64,000 nt of DNA from Stappia stellulata DSM 5886 (GTDB lineage: Bacteria; Pseudomonadota; Alphaproteobacteria; Rhizobiales; Stappiaceae), in NCBI RefSeq assembly GCF_000423705.1, contig NZ_AUIM01000011.1, positions 310,001 to 374,000 of the forward strand, read 5' to 3'. The translations under genes were made by a program, and so were the position numbers. Shown here piece by piece: positions 20,633 to 30,811 of this stretch. Position 1 is the stretch's first letter; each line of letters starts with the position of its first letter. The notes beneath the pieces are model-generated. The model saw only the letters and a list, made by a program, of their open reading frames with translations. It searched no databases and was not told the origin of the DNA.

Positions 20633-20640
20633 GGATGTGC

Positions 20641-21576
20641 ATGCGGATCGCCTCGGGTATCAAGCTCCGTCATCTCGAGGCATTTCTGGCCATCGCGCGA
20701 CTGCGCAGCCTGACGGATGCCGCAGCCGACCTGGGCGTGACCCAGCCGGCGATCTCCAAGACGCTGAAGGAACTGGAGAGCCTGTTGGGGGCGGTGCTGA
20801 TGGAGCGCGGCCGTGCCGGGGTGTCGCTGACCGCGGAGGGGGAAATCTTCCGGCATTACGCCAGCCTGTCGCTCGCGGCTCTTCGCGAGGGGCTCGACGG
20901 GCTCGAACAGGCGCGCATGGGCAGCGACCGGTTGTTGCGCGTCGGGGCGCTGCCGAGCGTGGCGGCGAGCATTATCCCGCGCGCCGCCGAGTTGCATCTG
21001 GAACACGGTCGCGGTGCGACGCTCGACATCGTGACGGGGCCGAACGGCCATATGCTCGACCAGTTGCGCGCCGGCGCACTTCATGTGGTGATTGGCCGCC
21101 TCGGTCAGCCCGAAGCGATGCAGGGGCTGAGTTTCCAGCAGCTCTACACCGAACAGGTTGCGCTGGTCGTGCGTCCAGGGCATCCGCTGCTCGGCTCGGG
21201 TGATCTCGCCCGGCTGCCGGAGTTTCCGGTGCTTTTTCCCAATCGCGCCGCCGCGATCCGCCCGCTGGTTGAGCGGTTGATGGTCGCCAATGGCATCGGC
21301 CAGATCCCGCGCCGGATCGAGACGGTGTCGAATGCCTTCGGCCGGGCCTTCACGCTGGGCTGCGATGCGGTCTGGATCATCTCGCAAGGGGTCGTCGCCC
21401 GCGATCTCGCCGACGGAACGCTGCATGCCCTTCCCGTCGATACGCGGATCACGCTCGGCCCGGTCGGCATCTCGACGCGGGCGGGAGAGGCGCCGGCGCC
21501 GGACCTGGTGCTGTTTGCAGCCGTCGTGCGCGATGTCGTCGCGCAACTGCGGCCGTCGCATCCGGCGAGGAGCTGA
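20641..21576 (+). CDS. pcaQ: LysR-family activator of the pca operon
   Basis: PcaQ activates pcaDCHGB when beta-carboxymuconate or the lactone accumulates (known from Agrobacterium and Sinorhizobium). The 311 aa protein has an N-terminal winged HTH (IKLRHLEAFLAIARLRSLTDAAADLGVTQPAISKTLKELE in pieces, residues about 6-50) and a LysR substrate domain. I prefer the ATG at 20641 because AAAAGGA ends 5-6 bases before it; an ATG at 20635 would add two residues but sits on the ribosome binding site. Divergent position next to pcaD is the classic rhizobial arrangement and supports the name. Confidence 0.93.
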   Translation: MRIASGIKLRHLEAFLAIARLRSLTDAAADLGVTQPAISKTLKELESLLGAVLMERGRAGVSLTAEGEIFRHYASLSLAALREGLDGLEQARMGSDRLLRVGALPSVAASIIPRAAELHLEHGRGATLDIVTGPNGHMLDQLRAGALHVVIGRLGQPEAMQGLSFQQLYTEQVALVVRPGHPLLGSGDLARLPEFPVLFPNRAAAIRPLVERLMVANGIGQIPRRIETVSNAFGRAFTLGCDAVWIISQGVVARDLADGTLHALPVDTRITLGPVGISTRAGEAPAPDLVLFAAVVRDVVAQLRPSHPARS

Positions 21577-21605: not shown

Positions 21606-22502
21606 TCATGCCTGCGGGTCCGGCGGAGCCTCCTCGGTTGTTTCGCCCTGCCTGCCGCTGCGGCGCTTGGGGTCGTCGTCGTCCCGGTAAACCTCGAGCA
21701 TCGAGATGCGGCGCTTGCTTCGCTCGGGGTCCGTGGCAGTGACGCCGGCGATCAGCGTCTCGGCGATAACCATCAGCGCGGCCGAACTGTCCCAGGGCGA
21801 GGGCACGGAGACCCGTGCCGGCAACACATGGGTGGCAACGCTGGCGATTGGCGACAGCCAGCTGTCGGTGACAAGCACGATGGTGACGCCGAGATTGGCG
21901 GCGGCCACCGAAAGGCGTGCCAGGTCAGACTGGTAGCGGCGGATGTCGAAGACGATGAGCACGTCCTTGCGGCCCATGTCGACGAGATAGTCGCGCCAGT
22001 TGCCTTCCTGACCGGCAACATGCACGACCCGGCCGCGCAGGATGCGCAGATGCGCAGCCATGTAGCGCGCGAGCGCGTCGGTGAACCGGCCGCCGAGCAG
22101 ATAGAGGGTTCGCCGTTCGTCACCGAGCAGAGCGACCACGGCTTCGAGTTCCGTATTGGGAAGCTGGCGAAACGTGTCGCCGATGTTGGCACAGGCGATA
22201 TCGGCGAAATCGAGGACGCCGGGCTCTGCCGGGCTTTCCGGCCCCTTGGCCAGCGGCGACTTGAGCTGATCCTCCAGTTCCGTGCGCAACCGGGTCTGCA
22301 GGGCGGCATAGGTGGGAAATCCCATCCGCGCGGCAAAACGCAGGATCGTGGGCGAGCTGACGCCGGCGGCGGCGGCGAACTGGGCGACCGTACCGAGACC
22401 GAGCACCGGATAATTCGCAAGCAATGCGAGAGCGGCCCGACGCTCCGTCGCGGTGCAGGATTCAAGCCTTTCGCGAATGTCCTCGGCCAGGGATTTGGTC
22501 AT
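21606..22502 (-). CDS. MurR/RpiR-family transcriptional regulator
   Basis: A 298 aa sugar-phosphate-type regulator. The N-terminal RpiR HTH spans residues about 1-75: LAEDIRERLESCTATERRAA, then TVAQFAAAAGVSSPTILRFA as the recognition part. A SIS domain follows (LYLLGGRFTDALARYMAAHL, VLIVFDIRRYQSDLARLSVA), which in relatives binds a phosphorylated sugar or related metabolite. The last 30 residues are a charged, low-complexity tail. The gene is divergent from the hydrolase-TRAP-ligase cluster and is its likely regulator. An 8+8 bp inverted repeat lies in the shared control region. The ligand is not known. Confidence 0.9.
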   Translation of the reverse strand: MTKSLAEDIRERLESCTATERRAALALLANYPVLGLGTVAQFAAAAGVSSPTILRFAARMGFPTYAALQTRLRTELEDQLKSPLAKGPESPAEPGVLDFADIACANIGDTFRQLPNTELEAVVALLGDERRTLYLLGGRFTDALARYMAAHLRILRGRVVHVAGQEGNWRDYLVDMGRKDVLIVFDIRRYQSDLARLSVAAANLGVTIVLVTDSWLSPIASVATHVLPARVSVPSPWDSSAALMVIAETLIAGVTATDPERSKRRISMLEVYRDDDDPKRRSGRQGETTEEAPPDPQA

Positions 22503-22523
22503 GCGTTTCGCGGAGCCTCCGGT

Positions 22524-22563
22524 TTTGATACCCGATTGACATCTGTCACGCGAGTGTATCAAA
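22524..22563. promoter_or_regulatory. candidate RpiR operator: 8+8 bp inverted repeat
   Basis: TTTGATAC (22524-22531) and GTATCAAA (22556-22563) are perfect inverted repeats with centres 32 bp apart, about three helical turns. They bracket a TTGACA at 22536-22541 that could be the -35 element of the rightward operon. The left arm is 21 bp from the regulator start, so binding could control both directions. Confidence 0.55.
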
Positions 22564-22681
22564 TCATACAGAAGGATCTCTGTCGCGCAATTCTGTAATA
22601 AATGGAACAGGCGGCGAGCTCCGGTCCGACTGGGAGGTCGCCGCGCGGTTCGCGTGGAATGCGGAATACAGGGGGGTGAGT

Positions 22682-23476
22682 ATGGCGTCGCCAACGACCG
22701 GGGAGACGGGGGCGAATTCCGTGATCCAGACGGAAAACGGCAGCGGACGTGGTCCGTTCGTGATCCTCTGCGATCACGCCTCGCGCCATCTGCCCGACGA
22801 CCTCGGCACCCTCGGTCTCGACGAAGCGGCGCTTCGCGCGCATATCGCCTGGGATCCGGGAGCCCTTGGCGTGTCGCGCGGATTGAGTCGACGGCTCGAC
22901 GCGCCGCTGATCTATCCGGATATGTCGCGCCTGGTGATCGACTGCAATCGCGACACAGCCGCGCACGACCTGATCCCGAGCGTCAGCGAAATCACCGAAA
23001 TCCCGGGCAACCAGGGCCTGAGCGAGGCGGCGCGTGCCGCGCGCATTGCGCGGGTTCATGTGCCGTTCCATTCAGCGATTGCGGAGCTGCTCGACGCCCG
23101 CGCAGCCGAAGGGCTGGAAACGGCGGTTGTGTCCATCCACAGTTTCACGCCGGTCTACAAGGGGATCGCGAGGCCCTGGCCGATCGGCATCCTGTCGAAC
23201 ACCGACCGCCGGTTTGCCGAGGGCATGCTCGCCGATCTTGGCGAACAGGACGTCGGGCCGCTTGGCGACAACGAACCCTATGCGCCTTCCGACGGGGTCT
23301 ATTACACGCTGGCGCGGCATGGCGAAGCGCGTCGCCTGCCCTGTGCGATGGTCGAGATCCGCAATGATGAACTGACCACCGCGTCGGCCGAGGAAATCTG
23401 GGCGGCGCGGCTTGAGCAGGCGATGCACGCGGCGCGCGACCGTCTGCACGCCAGGCAGGGGGGCGAACATGCTTAG
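22682..23476 (+). CDS. N-formylglutamate amidohydrolase family protein
   Basis: A 264 aa hydrolase of the FGase/HutG-type family, zinc-dependent enzymes that cut an amide bond on glutamate or a similar amino acid. Family stretches seen are FVILCDHASRHLPDDLGTLG (residues about 22-41), IAWDPGALGVSRGLS, YPDMSRLVIDCNRD, VVSIHSFTPVYKG and CAMVEIRNDELT. There are no hut genes nearby, so histidine degradation is unlikely. Next to a ligase of the glutamine synthetase family, a more likely job is cleaving an N- or gamma-glutamyl or formyl conjugate; that is inference. I chose the ATG at 22682, five bases after a GGGGGG; GTG at 22676 is possible. It overlaps the next gene by 8 bp. Confidence 0.85.
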   Translation: MASPTTGETGANSVIQTENGSGRGPFVILCDHASRHLPDDLGTLGLDEAALRAHIAWDPGALGVSRGLSRRLDAPLIYPDMSRLVIDCNRDTAAHDLIPSVSEITEIPGNQGLSEAARAARIARVHVPFHSAIAELLDARAAEGLETAVVSIHSFTPVYKGIARPWPIGILSNTDRRFAEGMLADLGEQDVGPLGDNEPYAPSDGVYYTLARHGEARRLPCAMVEIRNDELTTASAEEIWAARLEQAMHAARDRLHARQGGEHA

Positions 23477-24065
23477 CGCCATGCGCCTCTACATTCGCGC
23501 GGTGGATGGCTTCAACCGTCGGCTCGGCCGGCTGATCATGTTCGGTATTTTCGTGATGATCGGCATTCTGCTCTGGTCGTCGATTTCCAAGACCTTCTTC
23601 CTGCCGTCTATGTGGACCCTCGAACTCGCGCAATTCGCGATGGTTGCCTATTACATTCTCGGCGGCCCCTATTCGATCCAGCTCGGGTCGAACGTCCGCA
23701 TGGACCTGTTTTATGCTTCCTGGTCGCTGAAGAAACGCGCCTGGGTCGACGCCTTCACGGTGTTCCTTCTGATCTTCTACCTCGCCGTGCTTCTGTATGG
23801 CGGTCTTGGATCGACCGCCTATTCGCTGGGCTATTTCGGCAGCGAACCCTTTGTCTTCTTCAAGGATCTGGTCGTCGCCTTCGTCACCGGCGGGCCGGAC
23901 GCGGCCTCCGAGGTGATCGGCTACATCGAGCGCAGCCCGACGGCCTGGCGCCCGTACCTCTGGCCGATCAAGTTCATCATGATTTTCGGCTTTTTCCTGA
24001 TGCTGCTGCAGGCCGTTTCCGAACTCTTCAAGGATATCGTGCGGATTCGCGGAGAAGAGATCTGA
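23469..24065 (+). CDS. TRAP transporter small permease (DctQ type)
   Basis: The four-helix small membrane subunit of a TRAP importer, 198 aa. Hydrophobic segments lie near residues 20-38, 55-72, 95-118 and 165-185. The motif VRMDLFYASWSLKKRAWVDA after the second helix is the DctQ signature. It is longer than the smallest DctQ proteins, with a loop between helices 3 and 4, as in the mannitol/chloroaromatic-type TRAP systems. The start overlaps the preceding hydrolase stop by 8 bp (in-frame ATG at 23481 is an alternative), and its stop overlaps the DctM start by one base, so all three are coupled. That coupling ties the hydrolase to uptake. Confidence 0.93.
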   Translation: MLSAMRLYIRAVDGFNRRLGRLIMFGIFVMIGILLWSSISKTFFLPSMWTLELAQFAMVAYYILGGPYSIQLGSNVRMDLFYASWSLKKRAWVDAFTVFLLIFYLAVLLYGGLGSTAYSLGYFGSEPFVFFKDLVVAFVTGGPDAASEVIGYIERSPTAWRPYLWPIKFIMIFGFFLMLLQAVSELFKDIVRIRGEEI

Positions 24066-25387
24066 TGTCGTATGAGATGATCGCTCTTCTCATGTTCGCC
24101 TCGATGATGCTGATGCTGATGACCGGTCAGCGGGTGTTCGGCGCCATCGGTGGCGTTGCCGCGTTCGCCGCGCTGACGCTCTACGGCACCGGGGGATCGG
24201 ACATACCCTTTTCGGCTGCCATGAAGCTCATGAAATGGTATCCGCTCCTCACGCTGCCGATGTTCATCTTCATGGGCTACGTGCTGTCGGAATCGAAGAT
24301 CGCCGACGATCTCTACAAGATGTTCCACGTCTGGATGGGGCCGGTCTCGGGCGGCCTTGCCATCGGCACCATCGGGCTGATGGTGCTCGTCTCGGCGATG
24401 AACGGCCTGTCGGTCGCGGGCATGGCCATCGGTGCGACCATCGCGCTGCCGGAACTGCTCAGGCGCGGCTACGACAAGAAGATGGTGACCGGCGTGATCC
24501 AGGCGGGGTCCTCGCTCGGGATCCTCGTTCCGCCCTCTGTCGTGCTTGTTCTCTATGCGATGATCGCGCGTGCGCCGGTTGGACAGCTCTGGCTCGCCGG
24601 TGTGGTCCCGGGCCTGATGATGGCGACGATGTTTATCGCCTATATTTATGTCCGGTGTCGGCTCAATCCGAAGCTCGGCCCCGCATTGCCGCCGGACGAG
24701 CGGGATGTGTCCACGGCCGAGAAGTACCGCCTGCTCGCCTCCGGCATCCTGCCGCTGGTGATCTTCGCAGCCATGATGGTGCCATTCGTCAACGGCTGGA
24801 CCTCGCTCGTCGAAAGCTCCGCCATCGGCGCGATGACGGCCTTTGCGGCCGCGATCCTCAAGCGGCGCATGACCTGGACGGTGTTCGAGACCTGTGTGCG
24901 CCAGACGCTCGCGATCTCCTGCATGTTCATGTGGATCATTCTTGCAGCACTTGGCTTTGGGGCCGTGTTCGACGGTCTGGGCGCGGTCAAGGCGATCGAG
25001 GACCTCTTCACCGAGCAGCTTGGCCTCAGCCCGTGGATGATCCTCATCCTGATGCAGCTTTCGTTCCTGCTGATGGGGACCTTCCTGGACGATACGGCGA
25101 TGCTGGTCATTGTCGCGCCGCTCTATGTACCGCTGGTGCAGGCGCTGGGCTTCGACCTCGTGTGGTACGGCGTGCTCTACACGATCACCACGCAGATCGC
25201 CTATATGACGCCGCCCTTCGGCTACAATCTGTTCCTGATGCGCGCGATGGCGCCTCCCGAAATCACGTTGCGAGACATCTACGGATCGATCGCGCCCTTT
25301 GTGGCGGTGATGGTGCTGGCGCTTGCGATGATCATGATCTTTCCGCAGATCGCACTCTGGCTTCCGGAGTACGTCTATGGACGCTGA
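24065..25387 (+). CDS. TRAP transporter large permease (DctM type)
   Basis: The 12-helix ion-coupled transport subunit, 440 aa. Typical motifs are LTLPMFIFMGYVLSESKIAD (early), AMNGLSVAGMAIGATIALPE, GVIQAGSSLGILVPPSVVLV, and LMGTFLDDTAMLVIVAPLYV followed by QIAYMTPPFGYNLFLMRAMA near the end. Uptake is driven by a sodium or proton gradient, with the binding protein delivering substrate. The longer SLGILVPPS-type elements resemble the large-type TRAP (TRAP_mannitol/chloroaromatic) group. It is separated from the binding-protein gene by 140 bp containing three hairpins. Confidence 0.95.
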   Translation: MSYEMIALLMFASMMLMLMTGQRVFGAIGGVAAFAALTLYGTGGSDIPFSAAMKLMKWYPLLTLPMFIFMGYVLSESKIADDLYKMFHVWMGPVSGGLAIGTIGLMVLVSAMNGLSVAGMAIGATIALPELLRRGYDKKMVTGVIQAGSSLGILVPPSVVLVLYAMIARAPVGQLWLAGVVPGLMMATMFIAYIYVRCRLNPKLGPALPPDERDVSTAEKYRLLASGILPLVIFAAMMVPFVNGWTSLVESSAIGAMTAFAAAILKRRMTWTVFETCVRQTLAISCMFMWIILAALGFGAVFDGLGAVKAIEDLFTEQLGLSPWMILILMQLSFLLMGTFLDDTAMLVIVAPLYVPLVQALGFDLVWYGVLYTITTQIAYMTPPFGYNLFLMRAMAPPEITLRDIYGSIAPFVAVMVLALAMIMIFPQIALWLPEYVYGR

Positions 25388-25392
25388 CATCG

Positions 25393-25492
25393 CCTTGCGC
25401 GCTGCGCCAAGGCGCAAGGGTGCGGATCGCCGCGCCAATGATCTTCACCCCGCTCAAGCGGGGGGACAACAAGAAGAAGCGCTTTCAAGCGC
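25393..25492 (+). promoter_or_regulatory. three tandem stem-loops between dctM and dctP
   Basis: In order: CCTTGCGC/GCGCAAGG (8 bp, 25393-25419), CCCCGC/GCGGGG with a TCAA loop (25448-25463), and GCGCT/AGCGC with a TTCA loop (25479-25492). None has a T run. Binding-protein genes of transporters are often expressed above their permeases, and such hairpins could set RNA processing or stability on the 5' side of dctP. Confidence 0.5.
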
Positions 25493-25527
25493 ACAAGATG
25501 CAGTCAACCAAAAGGGGACTTGATGCC

Positions 25528-26577
25528 ATGACAAACAGACGCGATTTCCTCAAGAAGGCCGGTCTTGGAACCGTCGCCGCAGCCGGCGCCTCGACGCTGG
25601 CGGCCCCCGCCGTTCTCGGCCAGGCGCCGATCAAGTGGCGCCTGCAGACCTATGCCGGGCCGGCGCTCGCCGAACACGTCATCAAGCCGCATATCGATGC
25701 CTTCAACAAGGCCGCGAACGGCGACATGGAGATCGAGCTCTTCTTCGCCGATCAGCTCGTTCCCACCGGCGAATTGTTCCGCGCCATGCAGCGCGGCACC
25801 ATCGATGCCGTGCAGTCGGACGACGATTCCATGGCTTCGCCGACGGAGGTCACCGTCTTCGGCGGCTACTTCCCCTTCGCCAGCCGCTATTCGCTGGACG
25901 TGCCGGTGCTGTTCAACCAGTACGGCCTGAAGGAGATCTGGGAGGAGGAATACGCCAAGGTCGGCGTCAAGCATATCTCCGCCGGTGCGTGGGATCCCTG
26001 CCACTTCGCCACCAAGACCCCGATCCGCTCGCTGGAAGACCTGAAGGGCAAGCGCGTCTTCACCTTCCCGACCGCGGGTCGCTTCCTGTCGCAATTCGGC
26101 GTCGTGCCGGTCACGCTGCCCTGGGAGGACATCGAGGTCGCCGTGCAGACCGGCGAACTCGATGGCGTTGCCTGGTCGGGCATCACCGAGGACTACACGG
26201 TCGGCTGGGCCGATGTGACCGACTACTTCCTGACCAATAACATCTCGGGCGCCTGGGCCGGCTCCTTCTTCGCCAACATGGAGAAGTGGAACGAATTGCC
26301 CGACCACCTCAGGACCATGCTGCAGCTCGCCATGGATGCGTCGCACTATTATCGCCAGTGGTGGTACTGGGGCGGCGAGGCGTCCTTGCGCGTCAACGGC
26401 ACCAAGATGCAGCTGACCTCCATTCCCGATGACGAATGGCAGACGGTCGAGGAGGCCGCCATGGTGTTCTGGGACGAAATCGCGGCTCAGTCGGAAACCA
26501 AGGCGAAGGTCGTCGAGATCTTCAAGAAGTACAACAAGGACATGCAGAAGGCCGGACGGCCCTACCGCTATACCTGA
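25528..26577 (+). CDS. TRAP transporter substrate-binding protein (DctP type)
   Basis: The periplasmic binding protein of the TRAP system, 349 aa. It has a Tat-type leader (NRRDFLKKAGLGTVAAAG, cleaved near VLGQAP). The DctP fold follows: HIDAFNKAANGDMEIELFF, TGELFRAMQRGTIDAVQS, LKGKRVFTFPTAGRFLSQFG (the domain with the conserved Arg-type carboxylate contact) and AVQTGELDGVAWSG. The last motif and YYRQWWYWGGEASLRVNG near the end place it in the large, mannitol/chloroaromatic-like group. Tat export suggests folding before export. I chose the ATG at 25528 with AAAGGGGA upstream; one at 25498 is possible. The ligand is unknown but presumably contains a carboxylate or is recognised through a metal. 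Confidence 0.93.
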   Translation: MTNRRDFLKKAGLGTVAAAGASTLAAPAVLGQAPIKWRLQTYAGPALAEHVIKPHIDAFNKAANGDMEIELFFADQLVPTGELFRAMQRGTIDAVQSDDDSMASPTEVTVFGGYFPFASRYSLDVPVLFNQYGLKEIWEEEYAKVGVKHISAGAWDPCHFATKTPIRSLEDLKGKRVFTFPTAGRFLSQFGVVPVTLPWEDIEVAVQTGELDGVAWSGITEDYTVGWADVTDYFLTNNISGAWAGSFFANMEKWNELPDHLRTMLQLAMDASHYYRQWWYWGGEASLRVNGTKMQLTSIPDDEWQTVEEAAMVFWDEIAAQSETKAKVVEIFKKYNKDMQKAGRPYRYT

Positions 26578-26585
26578 TCGTGCTT

Positions 26586-26611
26586 GCCGGAGCCGCACTG
26601 GCGGTTCCGGC
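26586..26611 (+). promoter_or_regulatory. stem-loop after dctP
   Basis: GCCGGAGCC pairs with GGTTCCGGC (9 bp with one G-U pair) around an 8-base loop, 8 bases after the dctP stop. It has no T run and is the first of two tandem hairpins in the gap before the ligase gene. Confidence 0.5.
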
Positions 26612-26620
26612 CCAGGGTCT

Positions 26621-26656
26621 GCGGTCCGCATGCAAGCGTGCGGACCGCGTCTTTTC
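26621..26656 (+). terminator. intrinsic-terminator-like hairpin between dctP and the ligase gene
   Basis: GCGGTCCGCA and TGCGGACCGC form a perfect 10 bp stem with an 8-base loop, followed by GTCTTTTCC. This looks like a partial intrinsic terminator: it would reduce, but not abolish, transcription into the glutamine-synthetase-family gene 17 bases downstream. Confidence 0.55.
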
Positions 26657-26672
26657 CGCTCAAACGAGACCG

Positions 26673-28049
26673 ATGGATCCCATGGCTGGCAATCTCACCT
26701 TTGACGCCCTCAAGCGGGCGGTCGCCGACGGCGAAATCGATACCGTCCTGACCTGTATCGTCGACATGCAGGGTCGGCTGATGGGAAAACGCTATCACGC
26801 CCAGATGTTCGTCGATCACGCCTATGCCGAGACGCATTGCTGCAACTACCTGCTGGCGACCGATCTGGAGATGTATACGGTCGAGGGATACCGCGCGACG
26901 AGCTGGTCCGGCGGCTACGGCGACTATGTGATGCGCCCCGACCTGACGACGTTGCGCCTGGTGCCCTGGCTCGAGGGCACCGCGATGGTGCTTTGCGACG
27001 TGCTGGATCACCACACCCACGAAGAGGTGTCGCATTCGCCGCGCACGATGCTGAAGCGTCAGATTGCGCGGCTGGAAGACATGGGCCTGGTCGCCAAGAC
27101 GGCGACCGAGCTGGAGTTCTTCCTGTTCGAGAAGAGCTTCGACGAGATCCGCCGCTCGGGCTTCCGCGACCTGGAACCGATCTCAGCCTACAACGAGGAT
27201 TACAATATCTTCCAGACGACCAAGGAGGAGGTGGTGCTGCGCCCGCTGCGCAATCATCTCTATGCCGCCGGCATCCCGGTCGAGAACTCCAAGGGCGAGG
27301 CGGAGACCGGCCAGGAAGAGCTGAACATCCGCTACGCAGAGGCGATGGATTGCGCCGATTACCACACCATCGCGAAACATGCGACGAAGGAGATCGCCTG
27401 GCAGAACGGGCGCGCCGTCACCTTCCTGCCGAAGTGGCACCGCGACAAGGTTGGCTCCTCGTCGCATGTGCATCAGTCGCTGTGGACGAAGGCCGGCGAC
27501 AGCGTTTTCTTCGACGCGGACGCCGAGCACGGCATGTCCGACAGGATGCGTCACTACATGGCGGGTCTGATCAAATACGCGCCCGACTACACCTACTTCC
27601 TGGCGCCCTATGTCAACAGCTACAAGCGCTTTCAGAAGGGCACCTTCGCGCCGACCAAGACCGCCTGGTCGGTGGACAATCGCACGGCCGGATTCCGGCT
27701 TTGCGGAGAAGGCACCAAGGGTGTACGGGTCGAATGCCGCATCGGCGGATCGGACCTCAACCCCTATCTGGCCCTTGCCGTCCAGCTTGCCGCCGGGATG
27801 CGCGGCCTTGAGGAAAAGCTGGAGCTCGAGGCGCCGATCACCGGCGACATCTATCAGGCCAAGCGGCTGAAGGAGATCCCGGGAACGCTGCGCGACGCGA
27901 GCCGGTCCCTGAAGACGTCGAAGTTCCTGCGCGAGGCGCTCGGCGACGAGGTGGTCGACCATTATGTGCGCGCGGCCGAATGGGAACAGGAAGAGTTCGA
28001 CCAGGTGGTGACGGACTACGAAATCGCCCGCGGTTTCGAACGCTGCTGA
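26673..28049 (+). CDS. glutamine synthetase family ligase (likely gamma-glutamyl-amine synthetase)
   Basis: A 458 aa ATP-dependent ligase of the glutamine synthetase family. Metal and ATP residues are present: ELEFFLFE, then GQEELNIRY, HATKEIAWQNG and KVGSSSHVHQSLW (the His-x-His of the active site). The C-terminal third has NSYKRFQKGTFAPT, DNRTAGFRL and VECRIGGSDLNPYLA. The tail SLKTSKFLREALGDEVVDHY resembles PuuA-type gamma-glutamylpolyamine synthetases, and I see no adenylylation-site Tyr context as in GlnA. Such enzymes join the gamma-carboxyl of glutamate to an amine. With the flanking dehydrogenases and hydrolase, the substrate is probably an imported amine or amino alcohol. ATG at 26682 is an alternative start. 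Confidence 0.88.
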   Translation: MDPMAGNLTFDALKRAVADGEIDTVLTCIVDMQGRLMGKRYHAQMFVDHAYAETHCCNYLLATDLEMYTVEGYRATSWSGGYGDYVMRPDLTTLRLVPWLEGTAMVLCDVLDHHTHEEVSHSPRTMLKRQIARLEDMGLVAKTATELEFFLFEKSFDEIRRSGFRDLEPISAYNEDYNIFQTTKEEVVLRPLRNHLYAAGIPVENSKGEAETGQEELNIRYAEAMDCADYHTIAKHATKEIAWQNGRAVTFLPKWHRDKVGSSSHVHQSLWTKAGDSVFFDADAEHGMSDRMRHYMAGLIKYAPDYTYFLAPYVNSYKRFQKGTFAPTKTAWSVDNRTAGFRLCGEGTKGVRVECRIGGSDLNPYLALAVQLAAGMRGLEEKLELEAPITGDIYQAKRLKEIPGTLRDASRSLKTSKFLREALGDEVVDHYVRAAEWEQEEFDQVVTDYEIARGFERC

Positions 28050-28063
28050 GCGACACCGCCACG

Positions 28064-28092
28064 CGGCATCCGGCCCGCCGGGTCGAATGCCG
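28064..28092 (+). promoter_or_regulatory. stem-loop between ligase and aldehyde dehydrogenase genes
   Basis: CGGCAT and ATGCCG form the outer stem, with an inner CCGG/CCGG pairing around a 4-base loop. It starts 14 bases after the ligase stop and has no T run. It is weaker than the hairpins at the neighbouring junctions. Confidence 0.35.
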
Positions 28093-28158
28093 GAAACTAC
28101 ACTCAATTGACGGATCGCGTCCCGCGCCCCTCGCGGAGACGTTTTCAAAAGGTGCAAA

Positions 28159-29547
28159 ATGTCGGAAACGATCAAGCTGATTTCCCCGGTCGACGGGTCG
28201 GTCTATGCCGAACGCCCGGTGATCGCGGATGCTGAACTCAACCGGGCCGTGACCCTCGCGCGCACCGCCCAGGTCGATTGGGCGGCGCGGCCCATCGCCG
28301 AGCGCTGTGCGGCGGTGGGCGCTGCCATCGACGCGCTCGAGGCAATGAACGACGAGATCGTGCCGGAGCTTGCCTGGCAAATGGGCCGTCCGGTCCGCTA
28401 CGGCGGCGAAATGGGCGGCACGCGCGAGCGCGCCGACCATATGATCAAGATCGCCGAGGAGGCGCTTACCCCCCGCCGGCACACGGACCGTCCGGGCTTT
28501 ACCCGATACGTGAAGCCGGAGCCGCTCGGTATCGTCATGGTCATCGCGCCGTGGAACTATCCCTTCATGACCGCGATCAACACCGTCGTTCCGGCTCTCA
28601 TCGCCGGCAATACGGTGATCCTCAAGCATGCCGCGCAGACGCTGCTCGTCGGCGAGCGCCTCGATGCCGCCTTCAGGAAGGCGGGGCTGCCCGAGGGCGT
28701 GTTCCAGAACGTCGTTCTGACCCACGGCCAGACCGAGACTTTGCTCAAGTCGGGTGCCATCGACCACATCAATTTCACCGGCTCCGTCGGTGGCGGCCGC
28801 GCAATCGAGAAGGCGGCTGCGGGAACCTTCGCTTCGCTGGCGCTGGAGCTTGGCGGAAAGGACCCGGCCTATGTACGGGCCGACGCGGATGTCGATTTCG
28901 CCGTGGCGGGTCTCGCCGATGGCGCCTTCTTCAATTCCGGACAGTGCTGCTGCGGCATCGAGCGGGTCTATGTGCATGAAAAGCACTTTGACGCCGTGGC
29001 CGAAGGACTCGCCGCGGCCGGTCGCGCCTTCGTGCTCGGCAATCCGCTGGAGGAGGCGACGACGCTCGGGCCGATGGCACAGGCGCGCTTTGCGGCGCAC
29101 GTGCGCGAACAGACCGACGAGGCGCTGCGCAAGGGAGCGAAGGCGCTGGTCGATCCCTCCGCCTTTACCGCCAACGCGCCGGGCACTGCCTATCTCGCGC
29201 CGCAGGTGCTTGTCGATGTCGATCACCAGATGTCGGTGATGCGCGAGGAAAGCTTCGGTCCGGTCGTCGGCGTCATGAAGGTGCGCAACGACGAGGAAGC
29301 GCTGGCGCTGATGAACGACAGCCCCTATGGCCTGACCGCCTCGATCTGGACGGCGGACGAGGAGGCCGCGATTGCGCTCGGCGACAGGCTGGAGACGGGT
29401 ACCGTCTTCATGAACCGCTGCGACTATCTCGACCCGGCGCTGGTGTGGACCGGTGTCAAGGAAACCGGCAAGGGCGCGGCCCTTTCGGAGCTTGGCTATC
29501 TGTCGCTGACGCGTCCCAAGTCCTATCACCTGCGCCTCAAGACCTGA
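28159..29547 (+). CDS. NAD(P)-dependent aldehyde dehydrogenase
   Basis: Oxidises an aldehyde to its acid. The 462 aa protein is a standard ALDH: APWNYPFMTAINTVVPALIA (residues about 131-150), cofactor-binding FTGSVGGGRAIEKAA, catalytic Glu in ALELGGKDPAYV and catalytic Cys in NSGQCCCGIERVYV (three Cys in a row), then EESFGPVVGVMKV and the C-terminal PKSYHLRLK. It differs from betaine- and succinate-semialdehyde enzymes that I would recognise. Between a gamma-glutamyl ligase and an alcohol dehydrogenase, the likely substrate is an aldehyde derived from the imported amine or amino alcohol, possibly as its glutamyl conjugate; that is inference. Confidence 0.93.
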   Translation: MSETIKLISPVDGSVYAERPVIADAELNRAVTLARTAQVDWAARPIAERCAAVGAAIDALEAMNDEIVPELAWQMGRPVRYGGEMGGTRERADHMIKIAEEALTPRRHTDRPGFTRYVKPEPLGIVMVIAPWNYPFMTAINTVVPALIAGNTVILKHAAQTLLVGERLDAAFRKAGLPEGVFQNVVLTHGQTETLLKSGAIDHINFTGSVGGGRAIEKAAAGTFASLALELGGKDPAYVRADADVDFAVAGLADGAFFNSGQCCCGIERVYVHEKHFDAVAEGLAAAGRAFVLGNPLEEATTLGPMAQARFAAHVREQTDEALRKGAKALVDPSAFTANAPGTAYLAPQVLVDVDHQMSVMREESFGPVVGVMKVRNDEEALALMNDSPYGLTASIWTADEEAAIALGDRLETGTVFMNRCDYLDPALVWTGVKETGKGAALSELGYLSLTRPKSYHLRLKT

Positions 29548-29556
29548 GGCCCGGGA

Positions 29557-29582
29557 CCGGCGGGGCTCCAGGGTTCCGCCGG
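29557..29582 (+). promoter_or_regulatory. stem-loop between aldehyde and alcohol dehydrogenase genes
   Basis: CCGGCGG and CCGCCGG pair perfectly over 7 bp around a 12-base loop, 9 bases after the aldehyde dehydrogenase stop. No T run follows. It continues the pattern of hairpins at each junction of this cluster. Confidence 0.45.
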
Positions 29583-29647
29583 CACCAACCCATCCCGTCT
29601 TCTCGTTCTCCCGCCGCGAAGAGCGGCGCTTTCAGGGTTCAAAACTC

Positions 29648-30811
29648 ATGACGTCCACTCCTTCCGCAAACTGGTCCTATCCAACCTCCGTGCGTTTCGG
29701 CGCCGGCCGCATCAAGGAGCTTGGCTCCTGCGCCACGGCCGTTGGCATGAAGCGCCCGCTGCTCGTGACCGATCCGGGCCTTGCGAAGCTTCCCATGACC
29801 GAGGCGACCCTTGAGGCCCTTCGCGATGCGGGGCTCGAGCCGGGCATCTTCAGCGAGATCAAGCCCAATCCGACCGGCGCCAATGTCGAGGCGGGCGTCG
29901 CCGCCTATCGTGCCGGCGGCCACGATGGTGTGATCGCCTTTGGCGGCGGATCGGGCCTGGATGCGGGCAAGGCGATTGCCTTCATGTCCGGCCAGACCCG
30001 ACCGATGTGGGATTTCGAGGATGTCGGTGACTGGTGGAAGCGCGCAGACCCGGACGGCATCGCGCCGATCATCGCGGTTCCGACCACCGCCGGCACAGGC
30101 TCCGAGGTCGGGCGTGCCAGCGTCATCACCAACGAGGAAACCCACACCAAGAAGGTGATCTTCCACCCGAAGATGCTGCCGGAGATCGTCATTTGCGATC
30201 CCGAACTGACCGTTGGCATGCCGCGCTACTTCACGGTCGGCACCGGCATGGACGCGCTGGCGCATTGCCTGGAGGCCTATTCCTCGACTTTCTACCATCC
30301 GATGGGCGACGGCATCGCGCTGGAAGGCATCCGCCTGGTGTTTGAAAATCTCAAACGCGCCGCCGATGTGCCGGACGATCTCATTGCGCGCGGCAATCTG
30401 ATGTCGGCGGCCGCCATGGGGGCGGTCGCCTTCCAGAAAGGCCTTGGCGCGATCCACGCCTTGTCACATCCCGTCGGCGCGCTCTACGACACCCACCACG
30501 GCATGACCAATGCGGTCTTCATGCCCTACGTTCTGGCTTTCAACCGCCCGGTGATCGAGCAGAAATTCGAGCGCCTTGCCGGTTTCCTCGGCCTCGACGG
30601 CGGTTTCGACGGCGTGATGAAGGCGGTTCTGGAGCTTCGCGATGAACTGGATGTGCCGAACACGCTGGCCGGCCTCGAGGTCGATGGCGCGCAAGCCGCG
30701 AAGATCGCCGAGATGGCTGTGGTCGATCCGACCGCCGGCGGCAATCCGCTGGAACTGACCGTGGACGGCGCCCGTGCGATCTTCGACGCGGCGCTGGAAG
30801 GCCGCCTCTAG
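29648..30811 (+). CDS. iron-containing alcohol dehydrogenase
   Basis: A 387 aa type-III (metal-dependent) alcohol dehydrogenase that interconverts an alcohol and an aldehyde with NAD. The cofactor motif AFGGGSGLDAGKA (about residues 97-109) and the metal ligands in GMDALAHCLEAY and IHALSHPVGALYDTHHGMTN (His residues about 260-280) are all present, so it should be active. It is the last gene of the cluster. It is a relative of the broad group that includes butanol, lactaldehyde and choline-type enzymes. Paired with the aldehyde dehydrogenase, it would oxidise an alcohol in two steps to the acid. Confidence 0.93.
   Translation: MTSTPSANWSYPTSVRFGAGRIKELGSCATAVGMKRPLLVTDPGLAKLPMTEATLEALRDAGLEPGIFSEIKPNPTGANVEAGVAAYRAGGHDGVIAFGGGSGLDAGKAIAFMSGQTRPMWDFEDVGDWWKRADPDGIAPIIAVPTTAGTGSEVGRASVITNEETHTKKVIFHPKMLPEIVICDPELTVGMPRYFTVGTGMDALAHCLEAYSSTFYHPMGDGIALEGIRLVFENLKRAADVPDDLIARGNLMSAAAMGAVAFQKGLGAIHALSHPVGALYDTHHGMTNAVFMPYVLAFNRPVIEQKFERLAGFLGLDGGFDGVMKAVLELRDELDVPNTLAGLEVDGAQAAKIAEMAVVDPTAGGNPLELTVDGARAIFDAALEGRL

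Follow-up and report, generated by a model that had tools for sequence, protein, structure and literature searches.

The window, the whole stretch of 64,000 nucleotides that was analyzed, contains a compact block of eight genes (Table 1). A gene for an RpiR-type regulator is divergent from the other seven, which encode a hydrolase of the FGase family, the three components of a TRAP transporter, a ligase of the glutamine synthetase (GS) family, an aldehyde dehydrogenase, and an iron-containing alcohol dehydrogenase. The regulator gene has the same position and orientation in the related loci. All eight genes are complete open reading frames with the domains named for them in the preliminary description, and the genes flanking the block look unrelated to it. 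A start of rpiR at position 22502 was preferred over the TTG at position 22694. The start of the hydrolase gene had been claimed to overlap dctQ; it is actually its end that covers the start of dctQ (positions 23469 to 23476), with an overlap of 8 bases if dctQ begins at 23469. The aldehyde dehydrogenase stayed below every NCBIfam cut-off among the best 25 of the 44 aldehyde dehydrogenase families. The upstream LysR-type gene was rejected as part of the operon because its product is PcaQ (376 bits, cut-off of 304). Downstream of the block, reading frames resembling trpA, accD, and folC were recognized by eye.

Table 1. Features of the eight-gene block, with positions in the window and the evidence for each assignment
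Feature	Position	Strand	Evidence
rpiR-type regulator	21606..22502	-	HTH_6, 36.5 bits, and SIS, 62.7 bits (Pfam), both above cut-off
Candidate RpiR operator TGTATCAAATCATACA	22555..22570	.	Sole exact copy in the 4.6-Mb genome; next best site with 2 mismatches
FGase-family hydrolase, proposed gamma-glutamylglycine amidohydrolase (GGAH)	22682..23476	+	PF05013, 141.7 bits
dctQ/EtoV, TRAP small permease	23469..24065	+	PF04290, 56.6 bits; ATG at 23469 or 23481
dctM/EtoW, TRAP large permease	24065..25387	+	PF06808, 223.4 bits
dctP/EtoX, predicted ethanolamine-binding protein	25528..26577	+	TAT signal above cut-off; 82.2% identity to 4uab
GC-rich 13-pair stem-loop in the dctP-gs gap	26620..26649	+	Predicted stem; position conserved
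GS-family ligase, proposed ethanolamine gamma-glutamylase (ETAGA)	26673..28049	+	72.5% identity to PDB 5dm3; residues; tree
Aldehyde dehydrogenase, proposed gamma-glutamylacetaldehyde-amide dehydrogenase (GAADDH)	28159..29547	+	PF00171, 381.9 bits
Iron-containing alcohol dehydrogenase, proposed gamma-glutamylethanolamide dehydrogenase (GETADH)	29648..30811	+	PF00465, 179.1 bits; PF25137, 141.6 bits

Two noncoding elements of this region, the candidate RpiR operator and the hairpin in the dctP-gs gap, may be unreported so far. The pattern TGTAT-N6-ATACA, which was picked from the sequence of the window itself, was present with 0 or 1 mismatch in 17 of the 69 rpiR-ggah intergenic regions, the window included, compared to 0.55 expected from mononucleotide shuffles, and 14 of these 17 regions belonged to the window or to its closest relatives, which are Stappiaceae-like. 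Of the 73 dctP-gs intergenic regions, counting that of the window, 53 were predicted to form a stem of at least 9 pairs, compared to only 17 of 365 mononucleotide shuffles. Between positions 21500 and 31000, the number of terminator-like sites, this hairpin among them, was 3 versus an average of 6.0 in the shuffles, so that the scan by itself is no evidence for the hairpin. A scan of the same region for sigma-70 promoters gave none, with 1.5 in the shuffles.

The binding protein DctP was 82.2% identical to the chain of PDB entry 4uab over 314 aligned residues. According to the available part of PMC12410723, this entry is Csal_0678 crystallized with ethanolamine, with the ligand held by Glu220. 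Most DctP proteins carry a carboxylate-binding arginine where the protein of the window possesses a phenylalanine. At this Arg-147 position, Phe178 in the window, a phenylalanine was also found in 4uab, and 120 relatives of DctP contained either phenylalanine (114 proteins) or tyrosine (6 proteins). Csal_0678 has been described as being without this arginine, with phenylalanine as its most frequent replacement (PMC4646407). Glu221 of the window protein, present in 119 of the 120 relatives with a gap in the remaining one, probably corresponds to Glu220 of Csal_0678, judging from an offset of 3 in the numbering. The substrate had been left open before, with an amino alcohol as an example; this example was a good guess, but the close relationship of DctP to ethanolamine-binding proteins speaks against an open substrate and for ethanolamine, the substrate in the published reading.

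The ligase was about 72.5 to 73% identical to PDB entry 5dm3, which we take to be the product of Csal_0679. It retains the catalytic residues of glutamine synthetases, E129, E131, E212, E220, H269, R321, R339, E357, and R359, while E327 of the ammonia site is replaced by phenylalanine. The catalytic glutamate, histidine, and arginine residues and the phenylalanine at position 327 were found in all 75 members of the ligase group. The D50 position, located in a poorly aligned stretch, was occupied by aspartate in 29 of the 75. In a quickly built tree, the ligase and 5dm3 formed a group (support of 98) separate from the Escherichia coli enzymes GlnA and PuuA as well as from the GlnA of this genome; the grouping with ammonia-using GlnA that would have refuted the preliminary description was not observed. 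An assignment as PuuA was rejected because of its separate branch and a score of 201 bits, compared to a cut-off of 650.

Conservation of the gene order was evaluated in two sets of loci. Set A contained 80 loci, the best 80 of at least 583 DctP matches ranked by closeness to the DctP of the window, so that near relatives are over-represented; set B contained 46 further loci, and at least two set A loci repeat loci of set B (L122/L038 and L131/L039, with identical ligases). Genes were labeled by tblastn (E ≤ 1e-8), and only loci with full flanks of at least 4.7 kb on each side of dctP were considered, leaving out 22 of the 80 loci in set A and 8 of the 46 in set B for their short flanks. The complete order and orientation of the eight genes recurred in 41 of 58 set A loci and in 7 of 38 set B loci. 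The gene set, the conservation of which had been suggested for verification, is thus conserved, though not everywhere, and the block is far from a chance arrangement. Within 7 kb of dctP, with hydrolase and ligase both scored above 100 bits and the ligase also above 45% identity, a ligase gene was found in 60 of the 96 full-flank loci, 52 of which also contained the hydrolase gene, whereas it was present in 8 of the 36 loci without the ligase; the ligase thus occurred without the hydrolase in 8 loci as well. Ten genes beside EtoX or the hydrolase at eight ligase-poor loci (no ligase nearby in seven of them, a distant GS in L059) revealed no shared alternative enzyme in a Pfam scan: they encoded an amine oxidase, an MFS protein, a phosphatase, AmiC/AmiR-like proteins, a glutamate-synthase domain, an M81 peptidase, a zinc alcohol dehydrogenase, and one protein without a family.

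EtoX and the ligase occurred together in 23 of 385 genomes of the class, with EtoX in 47 and the ligase in 42 of them (one-sided Fisher p of 3.5e-13, the genomes not being independent). Counted among the 47 genomes are five DctP sites with one in-frame stop and one genome in which the gene is split into two fragments. At E ≤ 1e-120, the ligase had no match in 24 of the 47 EtoX-bearing genomes, and at 1e-60, EtoX had none in 19 of the 42 ligase-bearing genomes, indicating that the two are not linked everywhere. EutB was encoded in 5 of the 47 EtoX-bearing genomes but was absent from the genome studied here, and the ethanolamine ammonia-lyase route of the eut type was rejected for this reason.

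The gene set with its conserved order, the residues of the binding and active sites, and the kinship to a solved binding protein and a solved ligase indicate that the block is very probably an ethanolamine utilization operon of the eto type, comprising import, glutamylation, two oxidations, release of glutamate, and repression by RpiR. This operon type is already known in print and does not constitute a new system. Ethanolamine, a cation, would be imported by the TRAP transporter through its binding protein and coupled by the GS relative to glutamate, yielding gamma-glutamylethanolamide. In this organism, the iron-containing alcohol dehydrogenase would subsequently oxidize the hydroxyl group to the aldehyde, the aldehyde dehydrogenase would convert the aldehyde to gamma-glutamylglycine, and the FGase-family amidohydrolase would split this compound into glutamate and glycine. 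RpiR may repress the operon via the palindrome in the divergent promoter region. The sequence of import, gamma-glutamylation, alcohol-to-acid oxidation, and glutamate release put forward in the preliminary description is the published reading of the operon.

It is unlikely that the hydrolase is an N-formylglutamate deformylase of the ordinary kind, or only a bystander, and that glutamate is freed by another enzyme. The family name of the hydrolase agrees with a deformylase function, and FGase-family proteins were present in 203 of the 385 class genomes (1e-25), so that the hydrolase alone is weak evidence. It matched PDB entry 2odf at 1.5e-55; since 2odf and own_L004 were located inside the operon hydrolases in the FGase tree, labels follow this tree inexactly. 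Among the operon hydrolases, 25 were just 33 to 67% identical to that of the window, the hydrolase gene adjoins EtoX genes without a ligase in 8 of 96 loci, and no published assay of an operon hydrolase was found in the available parts of the sources. An assignment as HutG was nevertheless rejected, with 22.4 bits in the HutG model compared to a cut-off of 278.75, and the HutG of this genome is encoded elsewhere (347.6 bits). Moreover, the hydrolase accompanies the ligase far more often than it occurs without it (52 of 60 versus 8 of 36 loci), and its counterpart in Phaeobacter sp. MED193 was upregulated on phosphorylethanolamine (PMC10132767). The releasing enzyme from the FGase family had been regarded as a novelty; however, a gamma-glutamylglycine amidohydrolase of this family had been proposed earlier in the available part of PMC6529630 and is so named in PMC10132767.

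There is next to no probability that the ligase works as an ammonia-using glutamine synthetase within an operon for general nitrogen uptake. GlnA was the best NCBIfam model for the ligase, but the 246 bits reached were below the cut-off of 429, and the assignment as type I GlnA was rejected from this score, the phenylalanine at position 327, and the other branch; moreover, the genome possesses its own GlnA (L162), which carries D50 and E327. In an operon of the same type, L-alaninol (2-amino-1-propanol) or a different small 2-amino alcohol may be the main natural substrate, with alanine released instead of glycine, but this is very improbable. A second PDB entry, 4xf5, has the same binding-protein sequence as 4uab, presumably with 2-amino-1-propanol as the ligand. 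On the other hand, it is general knowledge that ethanolamine is an abundant natural amino alcohol. An unrelated ethanolamine receptor with a site like that of Csal_0678 binds 2-amino alcohols in one mode, according to the available part of PMC12410723, whereas EtoX of MED193 has a micromolar Kd for ethanolamine and its operon responds to phosphorylethanolamine (PMC10132767).

With an ethanolamine operon of the eto type, a Stappia-like alphaproteobacterium would join the bacteria in which ethanolamine, the headgroup of a phospholipid, can be utilized independently of the eut route, and a published pathway was recoverable almost exactly from the bare sequence. A wider proposal, which is probably not correct, is that the operon serves 2-amino alcohols generally, that the hydrolase acts on several gamma-glutamyl amino acids to release glutamate, that the conserved hairpin behind dctP keeps the amount of binding protein high relative to that of the enzymes, and that RpiR senses a gamma-glutamyl intermediate.

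Among the closest known systems is the operon for ethanolamine from Phaeobacter sp. MED193, MED193_10021 to MED193_10056, with the arrangement RpiR-GGAH-EtoV-EtoW-EtoX-ETAGA-GAADDH-GETADH (PMC10132767). Its eight gene functions and their order agree with those of the window, as does the kind of binding protein, without a difference in gene content or order as far as the legend to Fig. 5 of PMC10132767 describes it. EtoX of MED193 binds ethanolamine with a Kd of 7.9 µM, and phosphorylethanolamine raises the levels of the hydrolase, EtoX, the ligase, and the two dehydrogenases, while EtoX also rises without any phosphorus source (PMC10132767). For comparison at the sequence level, Leisingera and other Roseobacteraceae loci were used in place of MED193. 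The Csal_0678 region of Chromohalobacter salexigens is related by identities of 82% between the binding protein of the window and 4uab and 73% between the ligase and 5dm3. This region and its counterpart in Agrobacterium tumefaciens were reportedly treated by Vetting et al. in 2015. The pathway of Vetting et al. is called demonstrated in PMC10132767, and the C. salexigens pathway is called an in silico prediction in the available part of PMC6529630. According to the same part of PMC6529630, the GlnA4 pathway of Streptomyces coelicolor (SCO1611 to SCO1615) resembles the window in comprising a ligase, a pair of predicted dehydrogenases, and, as the predicted releasing enzyme, a member of the formylglutamate amidohydrolase family, but uptake is ascribed to permeases instead of a TRAP transporter. 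As proposed for the window, the Puu pathway of E. coli puts a glutamate handle onto an amine and removes it later, although PuuA shares just 30% identity with the ligase and is located on a different branch. The Ipu pathway for isopropylamine is likewise similar in that glutamylation of the amine is followed by oxidation of an alcohol. The 10-kb puu region encodes the oxidase PuuB, the aldehyde dehydrogenase PuuC, and the hydrolase PuuD with no iron-containing alcohol dehydrogenase annotated, whereas the window encodes such a dehydrogenase together with the FGase-family hydrolase.

The compact gene block claimed in the preliminary description was confirmed in the window. The divergently oriented rpiR gene is followed by the genes for a hydrolase of the FGase family (ggah), for DctQ, DctM and DctP of a TRAP transporter, for a GS-family ligase, for an aldehyde dehydrogenase and for an iron alcohol dehydrogenase. 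The overlap between the hydrolase gene and dctQ exists, but it is the end of the hydrolase gene, not its start, that meets the start of dctQ; eight bases are shared, given a dctQ start at position 23469, and the last base of dctQ is overlapped by the start of dctM. Read by eye, the frames at 16.7 to 20.5 kb look like pca genes, and those downstream of the operon resemble trpA, accD and folC.

Positions of the operon, the adjoining regulator and the predicted sites in the window
Feature	Position	Strand	Remarks
PcaQ regulator	20635-21576		Profile score 376 bits; adjoins the operon upstream, separate from it
Eight-gene block	21606-30811	rpiR (-), rest (+)	Complete open frames
Palindrome, candidate RpiR operator	22555-22570		rpiR-ggah intergenic region, 53-68 bases upstream of the rpiR start
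GC-rich stem-loop, 13 pairs	26620-26649		Between dctP and the ligase gene

The top PDB match of DctP was 4uab/4xf5 with 613 bits, the next match reaching only 59 bits. DctP is 82.2% identical to 4uab over 314 aligned residues, and its closest relatives among the matches listed were Stappia proteins with 94 to 95% identity. According to the available part of PMC12410723, 4UAB shows the Chromohalobacter salexigens protein Csal_0678 with its bound ethanolamine held by Glu220. The accessible text of PMC4646407 assigns to Arg-147 the role of binding the substrate carboxylate, reports an arginine at this place in 96.8% of the full-length TRAP binding proteins of the family, and gives Phe as the commonest substitute and Csal_0678 as a protein without Arg-147. 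This place is occupied by Phe178 in the window DctP and by Phe (114) or Tyr (6) in 120 relatives. Glu221, which from a numbering offset of three would correspond to Glu220 of Csal_0678, is kept in the window DctP, and also in 119 of the 120 relatives, with a gap in one.

The ligase, regarded before as an enzyme that can attach glutamate to an amine, shares 72.5% identity with PDB 5dm3 and 60.5% with 11zs; identity is only 27 to 30% with GlnA and PuuA of Escherichia coli and with three of this genome's four further GS-family proteins. In a quick maximum-likelihood tree, calculated without IpuC, GlnA4 and GMAS, it grouped with neither GlnA nor PuuA; it was found within a group of 75 rows with a support of 98, with both PDB chains inside and GlnA, PuuA and the genome's own GS paralogues all outside. 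The alignment of these 75 members (window, two PDB chains, 72 loci; GlnA numbering) contained E129, E131, E212, E220, H269, R321, R339, E357 and R359 in all of them. The place of E327, an ammonia-site residue of GlnA, was Phe in all 75, Tyr in E. coli PuuA and Glu in the genome's own GlnA; the poorly aligned D50 place was left unscored. A further pair of GS-family genes, L163 and L165, is located on contig C6 of the genome at about 195.8 to 199.5 kb. Because L165 groups with E. coli PuuA in the tree, the genome probably possesses a polyamine glutamylation route as well.

The hydrolase is a member of PF05013 that reached 22 bits with the HutG model (cut-off, 279). The genome contains five FGase-family genes, one of them a true HutG with 348 bits. 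A quick tree separated the operon hydrolases from HutG and from two other copies of this genome, but placed PDB 2odf (Atu2144) and own_L004, another FGase-family copy of the genome, among them, own_L004 on the same 7-row branch as the window hydrolase. This means that the substrate of the hydrolase is unproven by sequence alone.

Conservation was evaluated in loci where dctP is flanked by 4.7 kb or more on each side. Of the closest-relative loci, taken from the best 80 of at least 583 DctP matches, 41 of 58 contained all eight genes in the same order and orientation, as did 7 of the 38 loci from a second set of 46, so that the gene set does occur together in other genomes. Near dctP, 52 of these 96 loci had both hydrolase and ligase, 28 had neither, 8 had only the hydrolase and another 8 only the ligase. 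Among 385 genomes spread across the class, window genome included, the binding protein (E <= 1e-60) was found in 47, the ligase (1e-120) in 42 and both in 23 (one-sided Fisher p 3.5e-13, a rough value since the genomes are related). Speaking against a strict link, the ligase was missing from 24 of the 47 and the binding protein from 19 of the 42. EutB was present in 5 of the 47, all of them among the 24 without ligase, and was not found in the window genome.

L051 (genome G364) and L052 (G286) contain the hydrolase, the TRAP genes and both dehydrogenases in operon order with no ligase between dctP and the aldehyde dehydrogenase gene, and neither genome gave a ligase match at 1e-120. Seven loci (L040, L042, L043, L111, L144, L150 and L153) carry rpiR, hydrolase and TRAP genes, L150 without rpiR; the ligase was not found in their examined stretches, L144 being short downstream, nor genome-wide at 1e-120 in three of these genomes (G335, G041 and G168). 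At L057 (G001, 4.9-11 kb), where the hydrolase and TRAP genes occur without ligase, the next genes encode a periplasmic-binding-fold protein like AmiC and an ANTAR regulator like AmiR. At L059 (G176, about 2 to 7.5 kb), the neighbours of an EtoX-like TRAP transporter are a glutamate-synthase-domain protein and a GS-family protein with 30% identity to the window ligase; this arrangement resembles the N-methylglutamate methylamine clusters.

The candidate operator TGTATCAAATCATACA occurs as a single exact copy in the whole genome. Of 69 rpiR-ggah intergenic regions, 17 contained the pattern TGTAT-N6-ATACA, picked from the window after the palindrome was seen, with no more than one mismatch (0.55 expected). 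Since 14 of these 17 regions come from the window itself or from the Stappiaceae-like relatives closest to it, the recurrence owes much to shared ancestry. Terminator-like sites numbered three between positions 21500 and 31000, the hairpin behind dctP included, compared to 6.0 in shuffles. A stem of at least nine pairs, differing in sequence, was predicted in 53 of 73 dctP-ligase intergenic regions, compared to 17 of 365 mononucleotide shuffles, and this conserved position is better evidence than the site scan. Because such a stem was followed by at least four T within the next 10 bases in only 21 of the 73 regions, the predicted hairpin would more likely have a processing or stabilising role behind the binding-protein gene than that of a plain terminator.

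The substrate had been left open and an FGase-family protein as the releasing enzyme considered new. A literature search for RpiR, ethanolamine and TRAP transporter together matched solely PMC10132767. Its available part describes an operon of Phaeobacter sp. MED193 for RpiR, a gamma-glutamylglycine amidohydrolase, EtoV, EtoW, EtoX, an ethanolamine gamma-glutamylase and two dehydrogenases, with a Kd of EtoX for ethanolamine of 7.9 uM; phosphorylethanolamine raised five of the operon proteins, and EtoX was up also without any phosphorus source. The same text credits Vetting et al. 2015 with having demonstrated the pathway in both C. salexigens and A. tumefaciens; for C. salexigens, the accessible part of PMC6529630 speaks of a pathway predicted in silico, and it proposes a protein of the formylglutamate amidohydrolase family as gamma-glutamylglycine amidohydrolase. 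Ethanolamine is thus already assigned to this operon type, and an FGase-family protein has been put forward before as the releasing enzyme, so that neither point is new. An assay of this hydrolase was not seen in these parts of the papers.

The TRAP system would import ethanolamine, which would be glutamylated, two oxidations would yield gamma-glutamylglycine, and its cleavage would free glutamate and glycine. For the specificity of uptake and for the ligase step, the close relation to proteins already studied gives good support; what the two dehydrogenases do, the cleavage by the hydrolase and the control of the operon are deduced from the published scheme and family chemistry. The observation in the preliminary description was borne out and its reasoning was good, and the system in the window is an ordinary member of an already described operon type.
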